Below the pieces are notes generated by a model, which was not told the origin of the DNA, made no database searches, and was given only the letters and a program-made list of their open reading frames with translations. Shown here piece by piece: positions 9,048 to 53,548 of a stretch of DNA of 54,645 nt. The stretch's first letter is position 1; every line of letters starts with the position of its first letter. The stretch comes from a virus, in IMG/VR virus record IMGVR_UViG_3300048833_000212, positions 1-54,645 of that record. One strand, written 5' to 3'. The position numbers were made by a program, and so were the translations under genes.

Positions 9048-9305
9048 ATGAGCAACGACGAAGACATCATGGGCCAGTATGGCGAGGATCGCATCACGGG
9101 CTTCCGTGGGCGCATCACAGGCATTGTGCGCTACATCAGCGGCTGCACCCAGGTGCTGCTGACTCCGAAGGTCGGCACCGATGGGAAGATGCCGGAAGGC
9201 CAGTTCATCGACATCCAGCGCATCAAGGTCGATGAGACGGTGGTGCGCATCATGCTCGACAACGCGCCCACGCCCGGCTTCGATCAGCTGCCGAAGGCGC
9301 GCTGA
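9048..9305 (+). CDS. conserved small phage protein
   Basis: An 85-residue protein. The start at 9048 follows GAGAGAAG. The segment DRITGFRGRITGIVRYISG, with Cys-Thr-Gln and a later GQFIDIQRI, matches a small beta-barrel-like protein common in proteobacterial phages. Its function is unknown to me. It immediately precedes the polymerase gene (shared TGATG). Confidence 0.75.
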   Translation: MSNDEDIMGQYGEDRITGFRGRITGIVRYISGCTQVLLTPKVGTDGKMPEGQFIDIQRIKVDETVVRIMLDNAPTPGFDQLPKAR

Positions 9306-10414
9306 TGTCTGACCTCCGCACCAAGAAGCCATGGGTGTCGCCTCGGCTGCGCACTGGCTATTCCTTCCGGACGGCAGCGGGGATGCTGCCTGAAATCTTC
9401 ACGCGCTTGAAGGAGATTGGGGCGGAGGTCGCGCCAATCACAGACACAGCATCGACCTTCGGCTATGCAAAATGGGCGAAGGGAGCGAAGGATGCCGGGC
9501 TGCGGCCGATCTTCGGCGTGGAACTCTCCGTCACCCCTGCACCGAATGCGAAGAAGCCGGTGAGCAGCGCATGGACGTTCCTCGCCCACGACAGCATCCA
9601 GCCAATCAACAGGCTGGTGAACCTCGCCACATCGCAGTTCCGCTATGAGCCGCTGCTCACCTATGAGCAGGCAATGACAGTGGAGGGAGTGACGAAGATC
9701 GCAGGGCACGCCGCGCTGCTCAGCGAGATGTCGCCAGCACCCGACCTCTTCATGGGCCTTTCGCCTTCGTCGCCACGCGGTCAGGTTGTGGCAGCGATGA
9801 AGGCAGGCTTCCGTCTCATCGCCATCGGTGACAACCGCTTCCCGGCGCCGGGGGATTTGGCGCTGTATGAACTCGCTGCCGGGCGGAACTCCGGCACGCA
9901 GACTTATCCCCAGCACATCCTCAGCGAGGAAGAGTGGCGCGAGGCGATGGCCATGCTGCGGCTCACGGATGATGTGCTGGACGGCGCGCTGGTGGAGGCG
10001 AGCATCGCGCTGGAGAGGTCCACTGCGTCTCTCCGGAAGGCGACGATGGTGAAGCCTGCCCGACCGAAGACGTTGCGCGAGATGGCGGAGGATGGAGCGA
10101 GGCGCCGGGGGATAGACCTCGCTGACCCGGTCTATGCAGCGCGGCTGGAAAGGGAACTCTCCATCATCGAAGCGAAGCGGCTGGAGGATTACTTTTTCCT
10201 GATGGCCGACATCATGCAGTTCAGCCGGGCGCACATGCTGTGTGGACCGGCGCGCGGCTCCGCTGCCGGCTCGCTTCTCTCGTTCCTGCTCGACATCACG
10301 ACCATCGACCCCATCCCTGGTGGCCTACTGTTCGAGCGTTTCCTGGACGTGACGCGTGGTGGCTGGTTCTTCAAGACGGATTGGCTCAAGAATGTGATGG
10401 AGACGGAATCATGA
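9305..10414 (+). CDS. dnaE: DNA polymerase III alpha subunit, N-terminal piece (PHP plus start of palm)
   Basis: A 369-residue protein. Residues about 15-75 form a PHP-type domain (ITDTASTFGYAKWAKGAKDA, then LRPIFGVELS). Its metal ligands are degraded: the usual HxH is RTGYS and the TDH motif is TDT, so it is probably not catalytic. Near the end is the polymerase motif GPARGSAAGSLLSFLLDITT followed by LLFERFLD. The protein stops where the catalytic Asp motif would normally follow; that motif is in the separate gene at 11122. No intein signature is present at the end. Confidence 0.9.
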   Translation: MSDLRTKKPWVSPRLRTGYSFRTAAGMLPEIFTRLKEIGAEVAPITDTASTFGYAKWAKGAKDAGLRPIFGVELSVTPAPNAKKPVSSAWTFLAHDSIQPINRLVNLATSQFRYEPLLTYEQAMTVEGVTKIAGHAALLSEMSPAPDLFMGLSPSSPRGQVVAAMKAGFRLIAIGDNRFPAPGDLALYELAAGRNSGTQTYPQHILSEEEWREAMAMLRLTDDVLDGALVEASIALERSTASLRKATMVKPARPKTLREMAEDGARRRGIDLADPVYAARLERELSIIEAKRLEDYFFLMADIMQFSRAHMLCGPARGSAAGSLLSFLLDITTIDPIPGGLLFERFLDVTRGGWFFKTDWLKNVMETES

Positions 10415-10811: not shown

Positions 10812-11125
10812 GCGAGACGAAGAAAAGGCGACAGGTCTTCTGCCGCGTCAAGCACACGAAGGCAGGGACGGACATTGCCCCATGCGATGCACTCTCATCA
10901 GTCCTGATTTATTCGTATGGCGGCGCAGGCGCTAGGCTCGCCACAATGTTCCCATTCACAGATGGCATCCCGCAAGAGGGAAGGAACAAGCGCCTTGTAA
11001 TTGCGCCGACGAAGAAGCAAGGCAAAGGAGTGGTGGCGAACTTCTGCCCGTATTGTGGCGAGCCTCTGACGGAGGGTGGTCGCGGTTTCGTTGCAGAGCA
11101 GGCGAAGCGAAGGTGCAAGGCATGA
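10808..11125 (+). CDS. hypothetical protein with a zinc-ribbon-like C-terminus
   Basis: A 105-residue protein starting MSETKKRRQVFCRV and ending with NFCPYCGEPLTEGGRGF, a CPxCG knuckle. The first five residues repeat those of the preceding gene product. It overlaps the following polymerase gene by four bases. Confidence 0.7.
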   Translation: MSETKKRRQVFCRVKHTKAGTDIAPCDALSSVLIYSYGGAGARLATMFPFTDGIPQEGRNKRLVIAPTKKQGKGVVANFCPYCGEPLTEGGRGFVAEQAKRRCKA

Positions 11126-13200
11126 ACCCCATCGACGCGATCCGCGCCGCACTGATCCCCTCGCGCGTTCAGCAGGTGGGCCAGCAGGCGATTGACGATG
11201 AGATACACGCGCTCATCGCTGCCTTCGACTTCACGAAGTGGATGGTGGGGAGGCTCGATGCCGGAGCGCGCCTGTCCTCCGCTCATGGCTCTTCGCTGCT
11301 CTACTGCGTGGGCCTGGCCGACAATCCCCCGGCGCCGGGGGAGAAGAAGCATATGTGGTTTGACACGACGCTGCCGGACATCGACGTGGACCTGCAGGAC
11401 GATCTTCGCCACCTGACCTTCGCCCACATCGAAGCGACCTATGGGAAGGAGCGGGTGGCGCGCCTCGGAACGGTCGGCACCTTCAAGGCGCGCAGCGCGC
11501 TCCAGGAGGTCGGCATGGCACTCAAAATTCCGAAGTGGGAAACAGATGCTGTGGCTGACCAGATGATCAAGCGATCCTCCGGTGACGCTCGCGCGCAGCT
11601 GACGATCATCGACACGCTGGAGAATATGCCAGCTGGGAAGGACATGCTGAGGGACCATCCCGAAGCGATCATCGTGACGCGCATCGAAGGCCACCCGAAG
11701 AACGCAGGCCAACACGCGGCAGGCGTCGTCATCTCCAATGATGCCATTGATGAGATTGTCGCGGTGGATGCTCGCACAGGTGCTGCTATGTGCGACAAGG
11801 ATGATGCGGAGGGAGCGTATGGCCTCCTGAAGGCGGACATCCTCGGCCTCACGCAGCTGAGTGTCTTCGCGGAGACGCTGGAGCGTGCCGGCCTCCCGCG
11901 CGACTATCTGGACCACGTGCCGTATGACGACAAACTCGCCTTCGTTGTCATCAATGAGCGACGCTACAGCGGTGTGTTCCAGTTTGAGGGAGGCGCGCTG
12001 CAGAGCGTCGCACGCGCTGTGCACATCGACTCATTCAATGACTTCGTCGCGATGACGGCGCTGGCGCGTCCAGGGCCGCTCGCCAGTGGCTCCACCAACG
12101 AGTGGATCAACCGGCGCACAGGGAAGGATCGCGTCACCTATCCGCACGAGATGCTGCAGCCCTACATGGAAGAGACGCTGGGCGTCATCATCTACCAGGA
12201 GCAAATCCTCACCATCGGTCGCGCCGTTGGCGACCTCGACTGGCCTGAGTTGACTGCTCTTCGCAAGGCGATGAGCAAGAGCCTCGGCAAGGAATACTTC
12301 GACAGGTTCGGCAATCCATGGAAGAGCGCCGCGATACGGAAGGGGATGCCGACGCAGGTGGCGGAAGACGTGTGGACTGCGATGTGCGCATATGGATCGT
12401 ATGGCTTCAACAAGTCGCATGCCTACTCGTATGGACTCATCAGCTACTGGTGCGCTCACCTGAAGGCGCGCTATCCGCTGGAGTTCCTGGCGTCCACTCT
12501 CTCGCACACGAGCGACCCAGCGCAGCAGGTGGAACTCCTGCGCGACCTCCTGGCCGAAGGTTATGACTACATCCCCATTGATCCGTCTGTCTCCACCCAC
12601 CGCTGGGAGGTTGCGGAGAGGGAGGGGAAGAAGGTGGTGGTTGGACCTTTGACGGGTGTGCGTGGTATCGGCAGTGTGGCCGTCCAGAAAATCCTGAGCG
12701 CACGCGGCGCCGGGGAGCCGATGCCTGCGCGCTATGCGAAGCTGCTGGAGGCTCCGAAGACTGACATTGACTCGCTGTTCCCGATACGGGATGCGATCCG
12801 GCGCTGCACTCCGGACCTCCGTGAGAAGAACATCCACACGCCTCCCACGATGATCAGCGTGCTGGAGCACATGCCCGACAACAGCGAGGTTCTCATCATT
12901 GGCGTCCTGCTGAAGATCAACCAGCGTGACGAGAATGAGGAAATCAAGATCGCACGGCGCGGTGGGAAGCGCGTGACGGATGGCTTCCTGCTCTCGCTGA
13001 ATTTGAACATCAAGGATGACACCGGCCAGTTCTTCGCGAAGGTTGGCCGCTTCGATTTCGATGTGCTGGGGAAGCGCATCCTGGACCATGGCCGCGCAGG
13101 GAAGGCCATCTGGGCATTGAAGGGAAGGCTCTTCAAGCGCGGCTCCTTCTCAATGCTGACAGTGCGCAACGCGCGCCTCATCGGTGACCTCGATGAGTAG
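11122..13200 (+). CDS. dnaE: DNA polymerase III alpha subunit, C-terminal piece (catalytic palm, fingers, OB region)
   Basis: A 692-residue protein carrying the catalytic residues. PDIDVDLQDD (residues about 90-99) matches the PDxDxD motif, and LLKADILGLTQLSVF holds the third Asp. GTVGTFKARSALQEVG and NKSHAYSYGLISY are family blocks. About 80 N-terminal residues (from MNPIDAIRAAL) have no counterpart in standard DnaE and may form a docking segment for the N-piece. The C-terminus is OB-like. The two pieces plus the DnaQ-type exonuclease would form the replicase. Confidence 0.92.
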   Translation: MNPIDAIRAALIPSRVQQVGQQAIDDEIHALIAAFDFTKWMVGRLDAGARLSSAHGSSLLYCVGLADNPPAPGEKKHMWFDTTLPDIDVDLQDDLRHLTFAHIEATYGKERVARLGTVGTFKARSALQEVGMALKIPKWETDAVADQMIKRSSGDARAQLTIIDTLENMPAGKDMLRDHPEAIIVTRIEGHPKNAGQHAAGVVISNDAIDEIVAVDARTGAAMCDKDDAEGAYGLLKADILGLTQLSVFAETLERAGLPRDYLDHVPYDDKLAFVVINERRYSGVFQFEGGALQSVARAVHIDSFNDFVAMTALARPGPLASGSTNEWINRRTGKDRVTYPHEMLQPYMEETLGVIIYQEQILTIGRAVGDLDWPELTALRKAMSKSLGKEYFDRFGNPWKSAAIRKGMPTQVAEDVWTAMCAYGSYGFNKSHAYSYGLISYWCAHLKARYPLEFLASTLSHTSDPAQQVELLRDLLAEGYDYIPIDPSVSTHRWEVAEREGKKVVVGPLTGVRGIGSVAVQKILSARGAGEPMPARYAKLLEAPKTDIDSLFPIRDAIRRCTPDLREKNIHTPPTMISVLEHMPDNSEVLIIGVLLKINQRDENEEIKIARRGGKRVTDGFLLSLNLNIKDDTGQFFAKVGRFDFDVLGKRILDHGRAGKAIWALKGRLFKRGSFSMLTVRNARLIGDLDE

Positions 13201-21751: not shown

Positions 21752-23701
21752 ATGCCGATGCCCGGAGCAAGTGATCCATCCAAGATGGGCTTCGTGCGCG
21801 CCACGCAGTCCAAGAGTGATCCGTGGACGTTCATCGCGTCCACCGAGACAGTGGACCGCTACGGTGACGTCATCCTCGCCAGCGGCTGGGACCTCCGCTG
21901 GTTCAAGAAGAACCCCATTGCCCTTTGGGCACACAATCACTCGCAGCCCATCGGCACGTGGGAAGATGTCCGCGTGGAGGAAGGCTCGCTGGTGGCGCGC
22001 CTGGAGATGGTGAAGGCTGGCGTGTCCTCCATCGCAGATATGGTGCGAGCCTTCGTTGAGCAGCGCGTCCTGCGCGCCGTCTCCGTGGGCTTCATCCCCA
22101 AGGCTGCGGAGCCGCGCCTGGACGCGAAGGGCAACCCGACTGGTGGCTATACGTTCACCAAATCGGAGTTGCTGGAAATTTCTGTCGTCTCCGTCCCTGC
22201 CAATCAGGAAGCATTGGCAGTCGGCAAGTCGGCAGGGATCGCTGAGAACGAAATCCACCATCTGCTCTCCAAGGTCGATGAGCCCTGGCGGAACTCGAAC
22301 ACCAGCATCATCCGACCGAAGAACTTCAACCCCACCATCAAGGGAACACCGAAGATGCCGACCCTCGCGGAACGGATCGCCCAGCGCGAAGCCGAAGTGG
22401 TCACGCTGCGTGACCAGGTGACGGAACTCTCCGCTGCTGATGCCGATGAGTCCAACGAGACCAGCGCGGCCGCGCTGACCGAAGCGACCCGCAAGCTGGA
22501 CGAAGCCACCGCCTCGCTGGAGCGGCTGAAGTCGGCGCAGGCGACGCTCGCGCGTTCCGCCGCTCCCGCGCAGCCGGTGGCCGGCGTCACCGCTTCCGGC
22601 GCCGCGACCGTCCCTGCGCAGCCGAAGGCGAAGGGCAAGCCGGGCGAGGCGCTGTTCAAGGCAGGCTTCGCGACCTTCCGCGCCATCGTGGAGCGCCGCA
22701 GCGTCGATGACGTGATCAAGGGCATGTATGGCGATGCGCCGGATGTCGCGATCATGGCCAATGCGAAGGCGGCCACCGCTGCCGCGCGCACGGATGCGCC
22801 GGGCTGGGCGCAGGAACTCGTGCAGGATCAGGTGGTGGGCTTCGCCACGCTGCTCGTGCCGATGTCCATCTGGGCCGCGTTCCCCGGCCTGTCGCTGACC
22901 TTCGGTGGCGAAGGCAAGATCATCCTGCCGGGTCGCGACTACACGAAGAACGTGAGCGGCGGCTTCGTGGGCGAAGGCGGCGCCATCCCGGTGAAGGCGG
23001 GTGCGACCCGCTCCGTCACCCTGACGCCCGACAAGGTGGCCGTGATCATCGCGCTGACTCGCGAACTCGCGCGCCGCTCCAGCCCGGCTGCGCTGCCGCT
23101 CTTCCAGCAGATGGTGCTGGAGGATACGTCCATGATGCTGGACACGCTGTTCCTCGACAACAGCGCGGCAGTGCCGAATGTCCGGCCTGCCGGCCTGCAG
23201 ACGCTCGCCACCGGCATCAACACGCGCGCCTCCAGCGGCGCCACGCTGCAGAACATCATCGCGGACATGAAGGCGATGGTCGCGCAGATGGGCACCAACC
23301 GCATGGGCCGCACGCCCGTGTGGGTGATGTCGGAAGCGAACCGGCTGGCGCTGGCGATGCTGACCAACGACCTCGGCCAGTTCATGTTCAAGGATGAAAT
23401 CGGCCAGGGCCGCATGTTCGGCTATCCCATCCTGTCCTCGCTGAACGTGCCGGCTGGCGTCGTGTTCCTCATCGACGCCAATGAGATCGCGAAGGCGGCG
23501 GAAGGTGCGCCGGCATTCGATGTCTCGGAGCAGGCGACGATCCACATGGACAGCGCGCCGAATGCCGAACTCGGCGGCGTCACCACCGGCCTCGTGTCGC
23601 TGTGGCAGACCGACCAGATGGGCCTGCGGATGATCTGGGACCTCACCTGGGGTGCGCGCCAGACCGGCGCTGTGCAGACGCTCACCGGCGTGGCCTGGTG
23701 A
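21752..23701 (+). CDS. prohead protease fused to major capsid protein (HK97 type)
   Basis: A 649-residue fusion. Residues about 10-170 are a U35-type prohead protease with His in LWAHNHSQPIG, Ser in RAVSVGFIP and Glu in LLEISVVSVPAN. Residues about 205-275 form a delta/scaffold-like coiled coil (IAQREAEVVTLRDQVTEL). Residues about 290-649 are an HK97-fold capsid (GWAQELVQDQVVGFATLLVP, TPVWVMSEANRLALAML, GYPILSSLNVP). The protease would release the mature capsid from the fusion. Codons in the capsid half are more GC-biased than elsewhere, as in highly expressed genes. Confidence 0.95.
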   Translation: MPMPGASDPSKMGFVRATQSKSDPWTFIASTETVDRYGDVILASGWDLRWFKKNPIALWAHNHSQPIGTWEDVRVEEGSLVARLEMVKAGVSSIADMVRAFVEQRVLRAVSVGFIPKAAEPRLDAKGNPTGGYTFTKSELLEISVVSVPANQEALAVGKSAGIAENEIHHLLSKVDEPWRNSNTSIIRPKNFNPTIKGTPKMPTLAERIAQREAEVVTLRDQVTELSAADADESNETSAAALTEATRKLDEATASLERLKSAQATLARSAAPAQPVAGVTASGAATVPAQPKAKGKPGEALFKAGFATFRAIVERRSVDDVIKGMYGDAPDVAIMANAKAATAAARTDAPGWAQELVQDQVVGFATLLVPMSIWAAFPGLSLTFGGEGKIILPGRDYTKNVSGGFVGEGGAIPVKAGATRSVTLTPDKVAVIIALTRELARRSSPAALPLFQQMVLEDTSMMLDTLFLDNSAAVPNVRPAGLQTLATGINTRASSGATLQNIIADMKAMVAQMGTNRMGRTPVWVMSEANRLALAMLTNDLGQFMFKDEIGQGRMFGYPILSSLNVPAGVVFLIDANEIAKAAEGAPAFDVSEQATIHMDSAPNAELGGVTTGLVSLWQTDQMGLRMIWDLTWGARQTGAVQTLTGVAW

Positions 23702-24487: not shown

Positions 24488-24675
24488 AGGGCAGGCGGAG
24501 GTTCCTGGACCCTGCCGAGCAGGAAGCCCAGGAAATCTTCGCCAAGGCGAAGGCGGAGCGCGAGGCGCGCGCCGCACGTCTGGCAAAGATGCGTGACCAG
24601 CATTCGGGTGCAGATCGCGCAGAAGAGCGCGGCACCTATCTGGACAGGGAGATGAGGAATGTCCGCCGCCCGTGA
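24484..24675 (+). CDS. small charged helical protein
   Basis: A 63-residue protein from GTG 24484 (GTGA overlap), overlapping the portal start by 17 bases. Almost wholly a charged helix ([20 protein letters not shown]). Function is unknown; possibly a head-assembly accessory. Confidence 0.6.
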
Positions 24676-27253
24676 CGGTCTTCGCGGCGCCGCGTCGCGG
24701 GCTGTGTCTGCTCTTCGTCGCTCGCTCCTGAATGGCATCGGTCGCCTGCCGCAGTCCTTCCCTGTCAACTGGTGGCAGCTGGGGATGGATGCCAACATTG
24801 GCGGCGGGTCGCCTGCGATGGAGGCGTGCGTCAGCGCCATCTCGCAGACACTCGCCTCGCTCCCCATCGAGCACTGGCAGAAGGATGCGGATGGCGGCCA
24901 GACGCTGCTGACGAATAGCGTCGCAGCGCGCGTGCTCCGCCGCCCGAACAACTACCAGACGCGCGCAGACTTCTTCCTGAACCTCTCCCGCAATGAACTG
25001 CTGGAGGGGAATGGCTATGCCGTCGCGCTGGACAATGGCGACTTCCAGATTGAAAGCCTCCACATCGCTTCGTCGCCCACGACGATGCCGATGGTGGCGC
25101 CTGATGGAACGGTCTTCTACAACGTCGCACTGTCTGACATTGGCGCCGGCATCTTCAAGCAGCCGACGATCATGGTGCCGCAGGAGCGCATGCTGCACAT
25201 TCGGATGCAGACGCCACGGCACCCGCTGATCGGTGAGTCGCCAATCGTCGCAGCCGCACTCGCTGTCTCTTCTGGCGAGGCGATCCAGGCCCACCTGGCA
25301 GCGTTCTTCAAGAACATGTCCCGTCCATCCGGCTATCTGAAGGTGCCCGGCACCATCAGGGCGGAGGTCGGTGAGAAGCTGCGCGAGGAATGGCAGAAAG
25401 CATTCAGCGCTGGCGGCGCCGGGCGGGTGGCTGTCCTCCAGCAGGGGCTGGAGTGGACCTCGCTCACGATGAACGCAGTGGACGCTGCACTCATCGACAG
25501 CTACAAGATGACGGTGTCCGATATTGCGCGCGTCTATCGCGTGCCGCTCGCCATCATCGGAGAGAGTGGCGGCACAACCTATGCGAACACCGAGACGCTG
25601 ATCAACCACTGGCTGGCCACCGGCCTGTCATATGTGGTGGAGCACATCGAACTCGCGCTGGATCGTCTCTTCAATCTGCCGCCTGACCAGTTCATCTCCT
25701 TCGATCTGGATGCGCTGCTGCGCTCCGATTTCGCAGCGCGTGTCGATGCTCTGACGAAGGGCATCAGCGGAGGTCTGTTCAGCCCCAACGAAGCGCGTGG
25801 CCGGGAAGGCCTGCGGCGTGCGACGGCAGGCGATGAGCCGCGCCTCCAGGCGCAGGTTGTGCCGCTGTCCTTCGCGACGATGACCAACAAGCCTGCGGCG
25901 CCATCGATGCCTTCGGCTCCTGCTGCAGGGAAGGAAATCGAAGAGCATCTGACGCGCGCTCTGGACACTGCGCTGAACGAGTTTGGCGAAGCACTCACCC
26001 TGGCGACGGAAGAACTGCGCACGGAGGCGAAAGCCTTCATGACGAAGGATGAGGGTGCGCTGCTGGAGGCGCGTCTCGCAGCCGCCACTGCGGAGCGCGC
26101 GACCTCCGCCATGACCGCCATCAACGAGATGATGGCGCGCTTCATCGATGGCGCCATGCGCACCCCTCCACAAGGGGAGCGCGGCCTGCCGGGTGAGCGC
26201 GGTGAGAAGGGCGATCCAGGGGAGCGCGGGGAGCGTGGTGACCTTGGGGAGCGCGGGGAGAAGGGGGAGGCTGGCGAGCGAGGGGCTGACGGCGCGCCAG
26301 GGATGGCCGGGGAGCCTGGTCCGAAGGGCGAGCCGGGGGAGAGGGGCGCGCCGGGGGAGAAGGGTGCGGACGGGCTTCCCGGCCCAGCCGGGGAGAAGGG
26401 TGAGCGCGGGGAGCGCGGGGAGCCGGGTGAGCGCGGCCTGGACGGCGCGCCAGGGATGGCCGGGGAGCCTGGTCTGAAGGGCGAGACAGGGGAGAGGGGC
26501 GCACCGGGTGCAGACGGGCTTCCTGGCCCAGCCGGGGAGCGCGGGGAGAAGGGTGAGCGCGGGGAGCCGGGTGAGCGCGGGGAGCGCGGCGCTGATGGCT
26601 CCTTCGCGAGCGTCAGCACCTGGAAGCCGGATCATGTCTGGCGCGGTGCTGGTCACCTCGTGATCCATGAGTCGAGCACCTGGACTGCTGTGGCTGATCC
26701 CGAAGGCGCGGCGCCGGGGAGTGATGACCGCTGGCGCTGCGTCGCTGCCGGCATCTCTTCCATCCAGGCAGAGCAGGATGCGGACGATCCACGCATCATC
26801 ACGCTGGGCTTCCGTCTCGGCGCGACCGAAGTGCATGAGATGCGCTTCGCAATCCCTGCGCTGGTGTTCCGTGGGCTCTTCGATCAGTCGAAGAGTTACA
26901 GCATTGGCGATGTCGTGACCTTCAACGGGAGCAGCTGGGCTGCGCTGCGCGAGGTCGCAGGCGACATGCCGGGGAACTCCGATGCGTGGGCCCTGTCTGC
27001 CAAGCACGGTCGCGTGGGCCGCACAGGCGAACAGGGAGCCATTGGCCCAGCCGGTCCTGCCGGCGCCGTGGGCCCTGCCGCTGCAGGCATCATCGAGATG
27101 ATGGTGGAAGATGGATCGCTTGTCGTCATGATGAGCGATGGGGACGTGAAGACGATCCCCATTCCAGAGTTCACGCAAATGCGCAGTCGCCTCGACAGCA
27201 TTGAGCGTTGGCTGGGTGATGCATATGCGCGACGCGAGAGGGGAACCGAGTGA
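24659..27253 (+). CDS. portal protein fused to a collagen-like domain and a C-terminal binding domain
   Basis: An 864-residue protein, about twice the usual portal length. Residues 1-405 are an HK97-type portal ([36 protein letters not shown]). A helical linker follows. Residues 506-646 are 47 uninterrupted Gly-X-Y triplets, many GER, GEK and GEP. Residues 647-864 contain two short beta domains ([20 protein letters not shown] resembles CBM5/12-type binding folds) and a second short GXY run ([12 protein letters not shown]). A GXY triple helix would need trimers, whereas portals are dodecamers, so its placement is puzzling. Confidence 0.92.
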
Positions 27254-27909
27254 TGGCCAGCTTCCCTGAAGTCACGCTTCCTGATCCTCTCCCTCCGCTT
27301 CTCAGCGCGACTCAGCTGCGGAGCCTGCTGGGGCTTGGCGCCAGCGATCCGCCAACTGATGAGCAGCTGACATTCGTGTCGGAGGTCGCATCCGCATCCA
27401 TCCGTGGAAACATCGGCAGGTCGCTCACGCTGGCAGACTACATTGACACGTTCTATGACATTGATCCTTCCGGCATGCTGTCGCTGTCGGAGTATCCTGT
27501 GAAGGATATCACAGAGGTCGATGTCAGCGGCGTCACCCATCCTGGCGATACCTTCCGTGTCCACGCGAAGACCGGCATTCTGTATGCGCCATCCTCCTTC
27601 ACCGTTGGCGATCCGGTGGTTGTGAAGTATGAGGCAGGCTATGCGACGATCCCGCATGACATCCAGGCGGTGATGCTGGAACTATCTCGCCAGCAGCTTC
27701 ACTCCATGGGCCTCCCGAATGGCGCTGTGGATATCAATACACCCATCCGCGCCGTCTCCATCGGTGCGCTGCGCGTGGAGTATGCGGTGTCCCTCACCGC
27801 ATCCGCGACGAAGGGTGCGCAAGCATCGGTGCTGACCTCCATCCTGAAGGAATATGAGGCGACGCTCCAGCCATATCGCCACTCGCGCATCCTGGCGTCT
27901 GTGCCATGA
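27253..27909 (+). CDS. head-tail connector (gp6-like adaptor)
   Basis: A 218-residue protein. Helical N-terminus with SDPPTDEQLTFVSEVASASI, a beta segment LSLSEYPVKDITEVDVSG, and VKYEAGYATIPHDIQAVMLE, typical of HK97 gp6-like adaptors. ATG 27253 shares a base with the portal stop; GTG 27250 is possible. Confidence 0.82.
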   Translation: MASFPEVTLPDPLPPLLSATQLRSLLGLGASDPPTDEQLTFVSEVASASIRGNIGRSLTLADYIDTFYDIDPSGMLSLSEYPVKDITEVDVSGVTHPGDTFRVHAKTGILYAPSSFTVGDPVVVKYEAGYATIPHDIQAVMLELSRQQLHSMGLPNGAVDINTPIRAVSIGALRVEYAVSLTASATKGAQASVLTSILKEYEATLQPYRHSRILASVP

Positions 27910-53339: not shown

Positions 53340-53548
53340 GATCATTCCGGCTCCCAAAGGCATGTCGGGCTGGAGCCGGATCATTCTTGCAGCGGGCTGA
53401 CCGACCTTCCGCCAGAGGATCATTCCTCCAGCGTCCCAGGTTCCCTTCTGGCAGAGGATCATTCTTGCAGCGGGCTGACCGACCTTCCGCCAAAGGATCA
53501 TTCCTCCAGCGGCTGGACCTTCGACCTTTTGCCAGAGGATCATTCTGC
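53340..53548. repeat. iteron-like 39-bp tandem repeats (six units)
   Basis: GATCATTC begins at 53340, 53379, 53418, 53457, 53496 and 53538, a 39-bp period with a last step of 42. Units 2 and 4 are nearly identical (GATCATTCTTGCAGCGGGCT, then GACCGACCTTCCGCC). Units 3 and 5 share GATCATTCCTCCAGCG. Because 39 is divisible by three, false reading frames with 13-residue repeats appear on both strands. Location next to an AT-rich segment between divergent operons fits an origin, centromere-like site or operator array. Confidence 0.75.

Follow-up and report, generated by a model that had tools for sequence, protein, structure and literature searches.

A phage portal protein naturally fused to a collagen-like fibre with CBM5/12-like units

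Where would a collagen-like fibre go if it were made as one chain with the portal protein of a phage? The question is raised by one gene in the head region of a viral genome (IMG/VR record IMGVR_UViG_3300048833_000212; the window hereafter, meaning the whole stretch of 54,645 nucleotides that was analysed). A single open frame on the + strand, from the ATG at 24659 to the stop at 27253, encodes 864 amino acids. The sequence-only reading of this DNA had described a portal extended to 864 residues by 47 Gly-X-Y triplets and C-terminal beta domains, and the ORF, Pfam and AlphaFold bear this out. In what follows, we ask how such a gene arose and on which side of the capsid its fibre half could act.

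A portal and a fibre in one open reading frame

The features of the gene and its neighbours are as follows:

21752..23701, + strand: upstream gene, prohead protease fused to major capsid protein (Peptidase_S78, 3.6e-10; phrog_617, 7.8e-92)
24659..25870, + strand: HK97-type portal domain, residues 1-404 (PF04860, TIGR01537, AlphaFold model)
25871..25930, + strand: Pro/Ala-rich linker, residues 405-424, remnant of a portal tail (aligns with the portal tail of the relative L024 through AAGK)
25931..26155, + strand: single alpha helix of 75 residues, 425-499, predicted coil stalk (AlphaFold model)
26023..26041, + strand: candidate internal start, GGAGG and then the ATG of Met461, which would yield a 404-aa fibre (anti-SD pairing)
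26174..26605, + strand: collagen-like region, 47 Gly-X-Y triplets plus GSF, residues 506-649 (triplet count, Pfam)
26606..26752, + strand: first of two CBM5/12-like beta units, residues 650-698 (W/Y and PG...W pattern when 35 relatives are aligned; beta strands in the model)
26870..27010, + strand: second CBM5/12-like unit, residues 738-784 (structure match)
27008..27079, + strand: short collagen run of 8 triplets, residues 784-807 (triplet count)
27080..27250, + strand: C-terminal beta strands and helix, possible trimer cap (predicted strands 811-834 and helix 838-860; position conserved in relatives)
27250..27909, + strand: downstream gene, head-tail adaptor, overlapping the portal-fibre stop by 4 nt (phrog_442, 6.2e-24)

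A small gene lies between the protease-capsid fusion gene and the portal-fibre ORF, and comparison of the head-region DNA with phage records gave no near match. Elsewhere in the window, DNA polymerase III alpha is carried by two ORFs (9305-10414 and 11053-13200) about 640 nt apart, its NTPase domain being divided so that profile position 98 ends the first and position 99 opens the second; an Rfam search of the gap found no intron. A tandem repeat (4.3 copies, period 39) lies at 53378-53546.

The portal half is complete. Phage_portal (PF04860) matches residues 53-384 at 2.5e-76 (257 bits, curated cut-off 39) and TIGR01537 scores 182 bits (cut-off 112), so that Pfam and NCBIfam together place a complete HK97-type portal at residues 52-385. 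The fold agrees: in the AlphaFold model of the N-terminal part (residues 1-505, a monomer prediction), residues 43-391 align with residues 50-398 of the HK97 portal 8cez (Z 21.7, 4.2 A over 262 residues). The extension thus begins just past the point where the resolved HK97 portal structure ends, after the C-terminal crown, with a linker that is poorly defined (low pLDDT at 415-424).

The collagen-like region is equally clear, with 47 canonical triplets, or 48 by pattern if GSF is counted; its X position is mostly Glu (27 of 48) and its Y position mostly Arg, Pro or Lys. Pfam Collagen (PF01391) matches from residue 506 at 3e-28 (97.8 bits, cut-off 27.2), and in 2000 shuffles of the protein the longest Gly-X-Y run never exceeded 6. 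Most of the 35 aligned relatives likewise have a short second run in this position.

Beyond the long collagen run, a second AlphaFold model (residues 641-864) has a low pTM (0.39), and we therefore trust only its beta units and not their arrangement. Model residues 98-144, the second unit, match a cyanophage tail fibre at Z 8.8 and, at Z 9.1, the chitin-binding domain of chitinase C, from which they differ by 1.7 A over 47 residues; for the beta segment and the tail, outside model residues 96-144, the structure search returned nothing clear. CBM_5_12 (PF02839) matches residues 742-762 (0.0013) at 19.1 bits, under its curated cut-off of 26.2, which is why the units are called CBM5/12-like only. 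CBM-like tips are, by structural likeness, common to phage tail fibres and contractile injection systems, and the module itself is one found next to portals: phrog_1289 matches residues 691-789 at 5.2e-16, and phrog_2271 matches at 8e-69.

Origin of the fusion

Related loci were collected with a portal alignment: the 80 nearest and 80 more distant ones came from IMG/VR, and to these were added 10 genome loci and several annotated phages. By raw counts, which include redundant loci and hand-picked E. coli rows, the next gene carries a long collagen run or a CBM-like module behind 144 related portals, neither was found for 46 and 6 are truncated. Where it can be read, the related portal has a normal 430-490 aa and the next gene encodes a fibre-type protein built from a coil, a repeat or collagen stretch and a CBM-like part. 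The frame of this gene differs from that of the portal in 142 of the 144 cases, and its start commonly lies about 70 nt, or 4-8 nt, upstream of the portal stop. Because nearly all relatives thus carry the fibre as a separate neighbouring gene, the window ORF is a natural portal-fibre gene fusion, and the only collagen-bearing one among the surveyed loci: all five rows scored as collagen fusions are copies of the window. With the full-length protein as query, no relative was found in genome contigs and only one locus (L002) in viral contigs.

The nearest relative, L024 (62% portal identity), is split into portal and fibre genes; its portal has another 37 residues after AAGK, with the start of the fibre gene 8 nt upstream of the portal stop. 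The fibre of L024 and of other IMG/VR phages has its parts in the same order as that of the window, with a coil, then 44 triplets, a pair of CBM-like units, a short collagen run and a tail, but is encoded by its own gene overlapping the portal stop. The window linker, taken with the preceding VVPLSFA, aligns with the L024 portal tail (z 5.9), and the helix 425-499 weakly resembles the N-terminus of the L024 fibre (shuffle p 0.1). An overlapping pair of portal and fibre genes would have become one gene when the portal lost its tail and stop, and a deletion that took the portal tail, its stop and the fibre start, leaving the halves in frame, would be the simplest history.

Could the fusion be an assembly or sequencing error that joins two genes of the real genome? 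It is known from one metagenomic contig only, its relatives are split, and in E. coli a single G decides between the two states. Here, however, the portal tail aligns to AAGK, the frame runs on and the other two frames at the junction hold no remnant of a portal tail, which makes a single-base error an unlikely cause; an error of more than one base would be needed. GC by codon position is moreover coding-like all through the linker, the coding signal being continuous across the junction, and we hold such an error to be very improbable. The Rosetta-stone reading of such a fusion, in which it would prove contact between the partners, is too strong: adjacent overlapping genes can fuse by indel, so that a fusion on its own says little about whether fibre and portal touch.

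Fibre genes vary widely among the relatives, their collagen runs ranging from 1 to 210 triplets. In L096 (6277-11070), the coil, CBM-like units and collagen of the portal-adjacent protein run on into more than 1,300 residues with long tail-fibre-like GDTMTG repeats; in L098 and L099 (6343-11130), the gene next to the portal likewise encodes about 1,600 aa or more. In L050, L053 and L044, the gene after the portal is a short one of 88-132 aa, and the collagen gene is found roughly 2-4 kb beyond it.

A search for the same fusion in prophages, as the sequence-only reading had proposed, found no collagen fusion in alphaproteobacterial genomes, and found a collagen-free fused form in E. coli prophages. 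Among the alphaproteobacteria (two draws, 391 and 385 genomes), 16 genomes had a matching portal, in frames of 448-513 aa with one exception of 659 aa whose extension is unrelated. The portal of an alphaproteobacterial prophage (L217, 1401-3368) is extended at its C-terminus by about 250 aa of another kind, with no Pfam or PADLOC match. Portals fused to CBM-like units without collagen are those of E. coli (L004, L010, L011, L013) and of one IMG/VR clade (L066 and L104, the same contig, and L105-L107), in which the portal passes straight into one CBM-like unit, a shorter fusion.

In E. coli prophages (L003-L014), AGGGGGATACTGCGAAAATGA separates the portal from the next ORF and AGGGGGGATACTGAGAAAATGA joins the two: a run of five or six G toggles the pair, one extra G turning split into fused. 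The exact fused junction occurs in 747 of 5426 complete E. coli genomes (1331 places) and the exact split junction in 370 of 5426 (479 places), both lower bounds because the probes differ by other bases too. Both alleles are common and can share one genome. In PGAP annotation, the fused form (WP_000267294.1, 861 aa) is named 'phage portal protein' and the split one is flagged as frameshifted. The fibre ATG and its SD are kept in both alleles (-8.4 and -8.9 kcal/mol, the fused one recorded at -8.9).

Where the fibre could act

In known portals, the C-terminal crown lies at the inner face, towards the head interior (PMC10541612, PMC10359639, PMC4992974), and the C-terminal extension of the P22 portal forms an internal barrel (PMC4992974, PMC10541612). 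Display outside the head would therefore need release; since the extension begins after the crown, the fibre is either released, or inside, or its chain gets out by an unfamiliar route. The earlier picture of a neck fibre holds as to a portal joined to a collagen-like fibre with binding domains; its exposure at the neck does not follow, given that the extension continues from an inward-facing crown.

On indirect evidence, the second half of the protein has the look of an adhesin displayed outside the virion. The reading that we prefer, at a probability of about 0.55, is that a two-gene unit was fused, that the portal ring forms as usual and that a trimeric fibre with CBM5/12-like, glycan-binding tips is freed for display outside. 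The first half would build the ring; the second would trimerise through the long helix and the collagen into an adhesion fibre, whose end units would bind glycans of the host surface. We are less confident of the next step: display would occur only if some fibre is freed, by a start at Met461 or by cleavage, for which the phage's prohead protease could be the cleaver, by its gene location. A freed fibre could then be carried on the virion exterior, perhaps close to the neck.

Met461 is a candidate for release because a strong ribosome site precedes it. Of all sites in the ORF, the GGAGG at 26023-26027 pairs most strongly with the anti-SD (-9.3/-9.7 kcal/mol), more so than the site of the ORF's own start, and an equally good SD precedes 6 of the 271 internal ATGs (2.2%, Met461 included) of the window's listed genes; the linker holds seven ATGs, however, so that an SD as strong as that of Met461 would arise with a chance of about 15%. 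Met461 lies within the helix. M417 was also considered, being placed like the start of the L024 fibre, and was rejected for want of an SD. The sequence-only reading had named separate translation from an internal start as evidence against itself: a concrete site now exists, with the status of a candidate. The recurrent fused alleles of E. coli, which keep the fibre start with a strong SD as the window does at Met461, are a parallel that we count for release.

The alternatives keep fibre and ring together. That the ring carries its own covalent collagen as four trimers, either with C-termini that reach outside or with collagen stalks inside the head beside the DNA, is in our view a somewhat unlikely state of affairs. 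The arithmetic is no obstacle: the symmetry mismatch once proposed falls away, 12 chains making four trimers with no remainder. Collar fibres tethered covalently to the ring, with four trimers reaching the outside of the neck as the sequence-only reading had it, would fit this number and the single frame, in which every portal subunit must be made as a fusion, but they require a C-terminus outside, against known portal topology, and the flexible linker measures about 20-30 residues; we regard them as distinctly improbable. An extension that stays attached inside the head, its helix prolonging the crown and its collagen and beta units acting in packaging or ejection, is less improbable, though we doubt it. 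It agrees with the interior-facing crown and the P22 barrel (PMC10541612, PMC4992974), the portal of L217 also bears a (different) 250-aa C-terminal extension, and 12 extensions amount to only about 580 kDa, to be compared with 2.5 MDa of ejection proteins in P22. Yet in relatives the fibre is a separate gene of fibre-like, variable length: 210 triplets would measure about 180 nm if extended, and the estimated head interior, about 59 nm, is a third of that. CBM-type tips and tail-fibre repeats also fit an outside role.

Relation to known systems

A portal gene overlapping a gene for a fibre with a collagen or DGK-type stalk and CBM-like tips is common and apparently undescribed in the open-access papers searched, among which we found no portal-collagen fusion. 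The pair is present in roughly one in five complete E. coli genomes and in phages from many different hosts, and it often carries the mistaken label 'portal protein'. The natural fused and split alleles of E. coli make the location of the fibre and a separate product of an internal start directly testable, as well as the tolerance of the portal for a C-terminal load of 400 residues.

T4 wac, phi29 gp8.5 and SPP1 gp12 are examples of neck whiskers or head fibres, carried outside the neck or head. Close to the window stands phrog_2271 (WP_000267294.1), in which an HK97-type portal is also followed, in the one chain, by a coil and two CBM-like units at the C-terminus and which exists as fused and split alleles; its middle, however, consists of PxDGK/R repeats with no collagen run longer than 2 triplets, and it is fused by the 5G/6G run. 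Members of phrog_1289 (PAJU2 ORF007, Salmonella FSL SP-016, RHph_X2_26) share a homologous C-terminal module, encoded directly after the portal, but are separate proteins without a portal; their label 'portal protein' was probably inherited from fused members. The P22 portal barrel is likewise a long helical C-terminal extension of a portal, internal and without collagen (PMC4992974, PMC10541612). EPclA and EPclB of E. coli O157:H7 prophages combine coil, collagen stalk and globular ends as the window fibre does, and these prophage collagens were shown to be trimeric in vitro (PMC3368898); they are different proteins, described in a text that makes no mention of a portal (PMC3368898). SPP1 gp12, likened here by description, is a separate small decoration protein placed at hexamers, and like the window fibre it is collagen-like, in this case trimeric and on the head (PMC7602432).
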